NCBI GenBank assembly: GCA_008729055.1
Contig: SDUX01000004.1
Location: forward strand, 372,001 to 436,000
DNA: 64,000 bases
Source of the DNA: Pyropia haitanensis
Lineage: Eukaryota > Rhodophyta > Bangiophyceae > Bangiales > Bangiaceae
Direction: 5' to 3'
The notes beneath the pieces were generated by a model that saw nothing but the letters and a program-made list of their open reading frames with translations, was not told where the DNA came from and did not search any database. Both the position numbers and the translations under genes were made by a program. Below are positions 30,896 to 33,119 of the stretch, piece after piece (within the stretch, counting starts at the first letter, position 1; every line of letters begins with the position of its first letter).

Positions 30896-32964
30896 ATGGC
30901 ACCCAAGCGCAAGGCCGCCCCCCCACCCCCCCCCCCCGCTACGCCCTCACCTACGAGGCCGGCAACGTCGCCGGCCGCACCGCCGCGCACCCGCTCGGGG
31001 CGGTGGCGACCAAGGCCGCCGCCGTCCGCGCCGCCGCCGCCGCCATGACCGACCGCTGCCCGTGGGGCGCCGCGTGGGCCGCGCCGGCCGGGTTCGACGT
31101 GCACAAGGCGGCGCGCCGCGCGGCCGACTGCCCCGACGCGGGCACCGTCATCCACGTGGTCGACCCGCTGGGGCTGTACAGCCGCGTGCGCATCGCGGTG
31201 GTTGAGGGGGGGGGGGGGGGGCGGCGGCGGCGGCGGCAGCGTCGGCGACGGTGGCGGCGGGCGCGGGGGGGGCTCCACCGGCGATCGCGAGGGGTGGAAA
31301 GAAGGCAGCAGCGGCGGCGGCGGCGGGGGCCCCGGTGGCCGCTGCGCGGGTACCCAAGGCGGCGGCGGCGGCCGCGGTGGCGGCCGCACCAGCTGCGAAG
31401 AAGGCGGCGCCGCGGGCGGCTGCGGGAGGCGCCGCCGCTCTGCGGACTGCCAAGGCGGCGTCGACCAAGGCCGCGGCGGGGGAGCCGGCCGCGGCGTCCG
31501 CCCCGGGAGTGGCGGCGGCCAAGCGGGGGGCCGCCGGCGCGGCCAGCCGTGCCGCAATGGGGTCGACCAAGCGGCCGACGGCCGCCGCCGCCGCGTCGAC
31601 GACGGCTGCCAAGAGGCCAAAGACCTCGGCGGTCGCGGACGGCGGCGCGGCGTCGGCCGCCAAAGCGGTGGCTGTGGCCAGACCGTCGGCCGCGGCGGCA
31701 GCGGCTTCCAAGAAGGAAGCCGCAGCGGCTGCTGCCCTGGCGGCCGCGGCGGCGCCTTCCCAAAAAACGGCGGCAGCGGTGGTCAAGGAAGAACCGGCAG
31801 CGGCTGCTGCCAAGGCGGCCGCGGCGGCGCCTGCAAAAAAGAAGGCGGCAGCGGCGCGTCCCAAACCGGCCACGGCAGCGGCCGCCGCAAGAGCCGCCCT
31901 GGCGGCGTCCATGACGGCGGCCGGCGGTGCGTCCACCGCCGCCGCCGAGACGGGCACGGCCGCCGCCGCAGCGGCCGCGGCGGCGGGGCCAGCAGGGGTG
32001 GATGCCCCCCCGCCCCCCCCCCGCCCTCCCCGGGACGTCTACGTTCTGACCTATGAGGTGGGCGACCACTACTCCCGCCCGCGCACGACGGTCGTTGGCG
32101 TGGTCGCGACGCCCACCGCCGCGCGACGCGCCGCCGTTGCCGCCGCGGCCGAGCACAGCCCCTGGGGCGACGACTGGGCCGACCCGGAGCCGTTTGACAC
32201 CCACAAGGTGGCCACGACCGCGGCGCAAGTGACCGACGGTGCCACGCTCGTCGACGTGACTGACCGCGAGGGCGACTACTTTCGCGTCGGCGTCCGGATC
32301 GTCCGGGTAGATGCGGCGGTGTCGCGACGGGCCAGGGCGGGGCGGGGCGCCGCCGCCGCCGCCGCCGACGACGACGCGGACGCCGCCGCCGCCGCCGCGG
32401 CCGGCACCGTCTACGTGTTGACCTTTGAAGAAGGGGACCCCTACTCGCCCACGGACTCGCGCGTCGCGGCGGTGGTGACGACCCGCACGGCGGCGGTCGC
32501 GGCCGCCGACGCGGCCATGGCCGCCTCCCCCCGCGTCGGCTGCTTTTGGGGCGACCCCGACTCCTACGCGGCCCGCCGCGTCAAGCCGCGCCCGCACCGC
32601 GTTCGCGACGGCGGCACGCTCGCTCGCGCCGACGGCGGGGAGGGCGTCTGGGCGCGCGTGTGGGTGCAGGCGGTCACGCCGGCGGGGGCGGCCGCGACGG
32701 CGGGCCTGGCCCGCGTGGCTGGCTGGGCGGCCGCGCCCGCGCCGGGCGCGGCGGCCGCCGCGCTTAACGCGCAGGTGGCGGGTACATCGCCGGCAGGGAG
32801 CTCGCCCGCATCGTCGCGGGAGACCAGCTCGTCCTCGTCTGGGGGACAGTGCTGGGGGGGGGGGGTGCGCACCAAGCAGACCGCCCGCAAGACCAACGCG
32901 ACCCGCCCGCCGCGGCGGGCCGTGGCCGAGCCAAGGTGGGACCCGGTCGGGCCCGCCGCCGCCG

Positions 32965-32996
<32 letters not shown>

Positions 32997-33119
32997 GCCG
33001 CCGCCGCCGCGCCGCGGCCGTTGGGGCGCACCAAGTGGACCGCGCGCAAGACCAACGCGTGGCGCCCGCCGCCGCGGCGCGGGGGCGAGCCGGGGTGGGA
33101 CCCAGCGGGGCCCCACTGA
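30896..33119 (+). CDS. triplicated-domain protein with H1-like linker and two histone H3-tail mimics
   Basis: I know no named family for this. The ATG at 30896 opens MAPKRKAAPPPP; a C run at 30917-30936 then forces a frame change into module 1 (RYALTYEAGNVAGR to about 31205). A 16-G run at 31206-31221 forces a second change. A 250-residue Ala/Lys/Pro-rich linker resembling linker-histone tails follows (KKAAPRAAAG, KRPKTSA, KKKAAAARPK). Module 2 (about 32030-32325) begins DVYVLTYEVGDHYSRP and module 3 (about 32403-32700) begins TVYVLTFEEGDPYSPT; all three share a WG..W/F..D motif and a closing DG.TL...D..G.Y.RV segment. The C-terminus carries [12 protein letters not shown] (from 32865) and GRTKWTARKTNAW (from 33024), close to histone H3 residues 2-10, each followed by RPP(P)RR and WDP. 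A nuclear chromatin role is inference. Confidence 0.7.

Follow-up and report, generated by a model that had tools for sequence, protein, structure and literature searches.

A candidate mimic of the histone H3 tail at the C-terminus of a non-histone protein in the red alga Pyropia haitanensis

A gene in the 64,000-nucleotide stretch analyzed here (positions 372,001 to 436,000 of contig SDUX01000004.1, referred to as the window) encodes a protein with the octapeptide RTKQTARK, an exact copy of residues 2-9 of histone H3, at its end and not at its start. Is this protein a histone, does it resemble one by accident, or does it present an H3-like tail to the enzymes and readers that act on H3? Direct reading of the open reading frame (ORF) at 31251-33119 on the forward strand (622 residues) showed that it holds two H3-like units in one frame and terminates with TGA at 33117-33119. 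The exact match to H3 (32868-32891) that had been pointed out in the sequence-only reading was confirmed, and so was the duplication of the unit together with the RPP(P)RR and WDP segments. In the second unit, RTKWTARK, Trp takes the place of Gln5 of H3, and the residue that precedes Arg2 of the units is V or G, not the Met-Ala of H3. The genome with this gene comprises 52.9 Mb in 136 contigs.

Features of the gene in the window (positions are those of the window)
Feature	Positions	Strand	Remarks
Putative start, ATG (MAPKRKAA...)	30896..30937	+	Runs into C12 tract at 30926-30937
Domain 1 (RYALTYEAGN...RVRIAVV)	30937..31203	+	Frame other than the rest of the gene
Ala/Lys-rich low-complexity stretch	31251..31985	+	245 residues, 53% Ala, 9% Lys, net charge +26
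Domain 2 (DVYVLTYEVGD...)	32034..32315	+	Predicted fold, mean pLDDT 93.9
Domain 3 (TVYVLTFEEGD...)	32406..32678	+	
G12 tract	32854..32865	+	Directly before unit 1; in frame W-GGG
Unit 1	32865..32954	+	RTKQTARK (H3 residues 2-9) at 32868-32891
Ala-rich spacer, unit 1 to unit 2	32955..33023	+	
Unit 2	33024..33116	+	GRTKWTARKTNAWRPPPRRGGEPGWDPAGPH; RTKWTARK at 33027-33050
Stop codon TGA	33117..33119	+	

Five members of the protein family were examined: the window gene, a paralogue in the same genome (paralogue B, L037:1985-4291, G000:C3:3529484-3531790; 768 residues), P0002, P0003 (JGI) and P0004 (Porphyra umbilicalis BU14_0144s0026, the nearest named homologue). The window gene contains three copies of a domain of ~90 residues, with the Ala/Lys-rich stretch located between copies 1 and 2. 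Domain 2 is predicted to fold as strand-strand-helix-helix-strand-strand-strand (mean pLDDT 93.9), and comparison of this predicted fold with solved structures revealed no clear relative. A Pfam scan of the 622-residue ORF at E <= 1 matched no family; domain 1, which is encoded in another frame, lay outside the scanned ORF. This domain is identical at 72 of 89 residues to domain 1 of paralogue B and at 59 of 89 to that of P0003. Relative to the homologues, the frame changes after the C12 tract and again at a G16 tract (31206-31221) that comes after domain 1. Both changes may be sequencing errors or real lesions, and they were kept as in the assembly, uncorrected. Paralogue B has the same three domains, but its frame, unlike that of the window gene, is open throughout; its Ala-rich basic stretch is longer, and it ends in SSSSLDSRWVHPY, without an H3-like tail. 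The MAPKR start is found in paralogue B, P0002 and P0004, each in one frame, and is internal in P0003. Downstream of the gene, at 34227-36613 of the window, there are frames that, judged by eye, we take to resemble a gamma-glutamyltranspeptidase split over two frames.

The possibility that the protein is a histone H3 was rejected, as the motif is C-terminal and preceded by V or G, and the protein has neither an N-terminal H3 tail nor a histone fold (PF00125). The latter did not appear in the Pfam scan of the ORF, and a genome-wide search for it (22 candidates scored) gave 17 PF00125 matches, all of them at other loci. Besides four canonical H3 genes, the genome contains divergent H3-like genes (L013-L017; L018 and L019 were not read in the coding orientation), of which L013 starts with MARTKTTARRGLKPPS and L014 probably with MGRKKAVAQQYAP; these divergent genes are candidate H3 variants or centromeric H3. 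Linker histone H1 was rejected as well: no winged-helix domain PF00538 was found in the ORF, paralogue B or P0002-P0004, whose Pfam scan gave nothing but a TFIIA match in P0003 that was weak and failed the cut-off (E = 0.29), and the single PF00538 match of the genome, an H1-domain gene, is located elsewhere. The earlier description of the Ala/Lys region as linker-histone-like is apt for its composition, but does not extend to an H1 domain or any other Pfam match in the ORF.

Because long open frames come cheap in GC-rich DNA, the frame that encodes the motif was tested by codon position. In the region 32862-33119, A/T is found 22 times at the first, 16 times at the second and 3 times at the third codon position (p = 9.4e-5, binomial). 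For unit 1 alone the counts are 9, 9 and 1 (p = 0.005), for unit 2 alone 10, 6 and 2 (p = 0.03), and for the Ala spacer alone 3, 1 and 0 (p = 0.2). The tail region resembles the domain-coding segment 32040-32862 (66, 90 and 27) and is unlike the 300 bases past the stop (14, 19 and 28). The Ala/Lys stretch of the same ORF (31251-32039) displayed no codon-position bias (53, 48 and 53; p = 0.65). In P0003 and P0004, as in the window gene, the third domain is followed by W-G-rich residues, with WGGGHGRG (P0003) or WGRGHGRG (P0004) before the unit, and then by RTKQTARK. An assembly or frame artefact around the G12 tract would be in keeping with the behavior of the two other long C/G tracts of the gene, which coincide with the frame changes described above. 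It is, however, largely refuted already by the codon-position bias in this frame and by the motif following the same domain and the same W-G-rich stretch in the homologues, and we regard it as exceedingly improbable. The frame encoding RTKQTARK is supported by the codon positions and by the same-place motif in P0003 and P0004. A different frame through 32860-33119, with which the sequence-only reading would have fallen, finds no favor in these counts.

How surprising is the match itself? RTKQTARK is expected 1.3e-7 times in a protein of the same composition, and it never arose when the last 130 residues were shuffled 200,000 times, in line with the low chance that had been ascribed to the eight-residue match; for both genome strands the expectation by composition is 0.004-0.006 sites (assumed GC 66-70%), all of these figures carrying a selection bias in that the motif was noticed post hoc. 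The homologues serve as the independent test. For RTKxTARK, the expectation by composition is about 0.17 per genome (assumed GC 68%). Scanning of the genome with codon-degenerate patterns, which is blind to a motif split by an intron or lying in a withheld stretch, gave five matches to RTKQTARK (the four H3 genes and this gene) and six to RTKxTARK in the 52.9 Mb (the four H3 genes and units 1 and 2), with 0 matches for the backwards-pattern control of both scans. In addition, 27 residues of the tail could be aligned with an H3 peptide (E = 0.011). The occurrence in a non-histone protein of a motif identical to H3 thus goes beyond chance.

The motif is present in three of the five family members, namely the window gene, P0003 and P0004, and absent in paralogue B and P0002. 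P0003 and P0004 have one RTKQTARK unit each, followed by ST or SS (ST in P0004, as in H3), with Ser at the equivalent of position 10 in both proteins; the doubled unit was seen in the window gene alone. The earlier statement that the unit was duplicated and kept is accordingly correct for the two copies found here, but "kept" is weak, given one unit in each of the two homologues and Trp for Gln5 in unit 2. From domain 2 to the end (268 columns), the window protein is 46.6% identical to P0003 and 47.8% to P0004, and the longest identical run in either comparison is RTKQTARK itself (8 residues), the next longest being VYVLTY and DGATLV (6 each). Full identity of a preselected 8-mer would be expected with a probability of 0.466^8 ~0.002 if sites were independent. 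Without gaps, the motif is identical at 8/8 positions and the flanks at 2/10 before and 1-2/10 after it, although in a gapped alignment some flank residues (GG, WGGG, PP, RR) also align. Since P0003 and P0004 differ little (84.8% identity), conservation of the motif above that of its flanks was found in what is in effect about one between-species comparison. The P0003-P0004 pair adds little, because the motif lies there within an identical run of 14 residues and the other runs (18, 15, 15, 14 and 14) are as long or longer. As far as these alignments go, RTKQTARK is retained between two species while its flanks diverged. Such retention was the sequence-only reading's own test, orthologues lacking the motif being named there as its refutation. 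The family tree is unrooted, so the window gene and P0003/P0004 are called homologues and orthology is not assumed. One protein search returned neither P0003 nor P0004, although they are homologous, and we therefore claim no absence from such searches.

These data bear on the possibility of coincidence, in which a basic, Thr-containing tail was kept for a different purpose, be it contact with DNA or RNA, nuclear import or phosphorylation, and equals H3 2-9 by accident. The region past domain 3 is basic throughout (net +13), and the Q5W difference of unit 2 preserves charge and not H3 identity, which would suit such an origin. On the other hand, the match is rare by expectation both per protein and per genome (about 0.005), identity of the window protein with P0003/P0004 extends to the non-basic residues T3, Q5, T6 and A7, and the next residue in both homologues is Ser, as in H3. 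We consider coincidence unlikely, though it is the rival to be taken most seriously. One H3 gene (the C8 copy) encodes RTKQTARK with the same 24 bases, and a copy of the beginning of an H3 coding sequence might have entered the 3' end of this gene in an ancestor, leaving a tail that is now decaying or kept for its charge only. A few further H3-like residues (P16, R17, A21) fit this scenario, but inspection by eye shows no clear DNA identity past the 24 bases, codon bias alone could yield an identity of that length, and no residue of the motif has been lost in the window protein, P0003 or P0004. A captured relic of this kind seems to us improbable. H3 capture may be the origin of the motif without explaining its retention.

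The explanation that we prefer, and to which we give an about even chance, is that the window protein is a cellular mimic of the H3 tail, acting as a substrate or bait for H3-tail enzymes or readers. The family is known here from Bangiales only, and the protein is probably nuclear, as assumed from its basic composition. Its C-terminal tail would display one (P0003, P0004) or two (window gene) copies of H3 2-9, with Ser or Thr in the place of Ser10, and we infer that it may be bound or modified by H3-tail enzymes and readers. The conserved block covers both the K4 and the K9 sides of the H3 tail; SET1/MLL-type enzymes could target the K4-like lysine, and an EZH2-type enzyme the lysine of ARK[S/T]. 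With its basic Ala/Lys stretch holding DNA, the protein might bring these factors to that DNA or, alternatively, compete with nucleosomes for them. Some readers, including some PHD fingers, need a free H3 N-terminus. As the unit is internal, with V or G before Arg2, readers of this type are unlikely partners; candidates would remain among the enzymes and chromodomains that accept an extended peptide from within a chain. Counting against a mimic, paralogue B and P0002 do without the unit, and unit 2 departs from H3 at Gln5. A more far-reaching version, which we think improbable, is that Bangiales possess a dedicated nucleosome-free surrogate of the H3 tail, a basic chromatin protein that shows H3 2-9 units in trans, doubled in the present genome, and titrates or recruits writers and chromodomain proteins; the tail of such a surrogate may be a decoy for chromodomain-ending retroelement integrases.

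Candidate partners of an H3-tail mimic were identified in the genome by sequence. They include SET1/MLL-like (H3K4) candidates (L055, L057 with FYRN/FYRC, and L060), an EZH2-like candidate (L058, E = 4.4e-33), a candidate remodeller of the CHD type (L075), which has two chromodomain stretches, and a candidate PHD protein (L080). By sequence the genome also encodes AWS-SET proteins (L056, L059 and L070). Genome searches for Pre-SET and for chromo-shadow domains, both run without a positive control, were empty, and reading by the H3K9 writers and HP1 named in the sequence-only reading is not favored. A special case of the mimic would be a cofactor of PRC2 similar to JARID2 or PALI1, in which an EZH2-like enzyme methylates ARK[S/T], and the methylated tail binds EED and regulates PRC2. 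The genome does contain an EZH2-like SET gene, and ARKS is common to H3K9 and H3K27, both of which are methylated by the E(z)-type enzyme Ezl1 of Paramecium, according to PMC6586856. Activation of PRC2 by methylated mimics such as PALI1 and JARID2, with PALI1 K1241 as a precedent, is described in PMC8319299. This cofactor model leaves the conservation of R2-T3-K4-Q5 unexplained, and we give it a small probability.

Chromodomains and SET domains also occur in the genome in other contexts. Frames of 1180 residues account for 66 (counted by eye) of the 150 chromodomain matches that were scored among 201 candidates. One such frame (L046; part scanned) combines integrase domains with a C-terminal chromodomain; these frames probably constitute a large family of chromodomain-bearing retroelements. 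Frames of ~1,600 residues on small contigs (L076:1-2613 and L077:37-4524) contain an N6/N4 DNA methylase domain (PF01555) and a SET domain in both scanned copies, and SET matches are also found on C62 and C114. The frames with PF01555 and SET are possibly a mobile element carrying both domains.

To our knowledge, red-algal chromatin has been little studied. Among the matches listed, the open literature contained no report of H3-tail mimicry in red algae, and what those matches say on histone mimicry is for the most part about viruses and about short motifs of animal proteins (e.g. PMC10611923, PMC10208167). If the window protein is indeed an H3-tail mimic, it would provide a natural experiment on H3-tail signalling detached from the nucleosome, with one gene carrying a doubled unit and a paralogue without it, and the red-algal unit would be a directly testable peptide.

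The motifs of EHMT1/EHMT2 substrates share just a few residues with H3, around ARK[S/T], whereas the window protein matches eight residues that span the K4 and K9 regions; moreover, no Pre-SET gene was found in this alga (no positive control). Common to both is a non-histone protein with an H3K9-like stretch, which H3-tail enzymes and readers may use here as they do in the cellular linear motifs methylated by EHMT1/EHMT2 in WIZ, LIG1 and others (PMC10611923). PALI1 and JARID2 resemble the proposed mimic as chromatin proteins in which a methylatable lysine acts like a methylated H3 lysine (PMC8319299), and the alga has an EZH2-like gene; in contrast to them, the conserved block here is H3 2-9, and a PRC2-binding region is not in evidence. 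The viral mimic NS1 of influenza also bears a short H3-tail-like motif on a non-histone protein (PMC10208167). Unlike NS1, the protein described here is encoded by a host gene, has a further tail after the motif, and keeps the motif in a homologue from another species. With linker histone H1 it has the Ala/Lys-rich basic stretch in common, but the globular H1 domain (PF00538) was not found in the ORF. A further paper reportedly, by its title, concerns H3 N-terminal mimicry of methyl-effectors; the motif described here is not N-terminal. Histone mimicry as such is already known; what stands out in this case is that the identity is long, C-terminal, found in this lineage and retained between species, and that a paralogue without the motif offers a comparison within the same genome.
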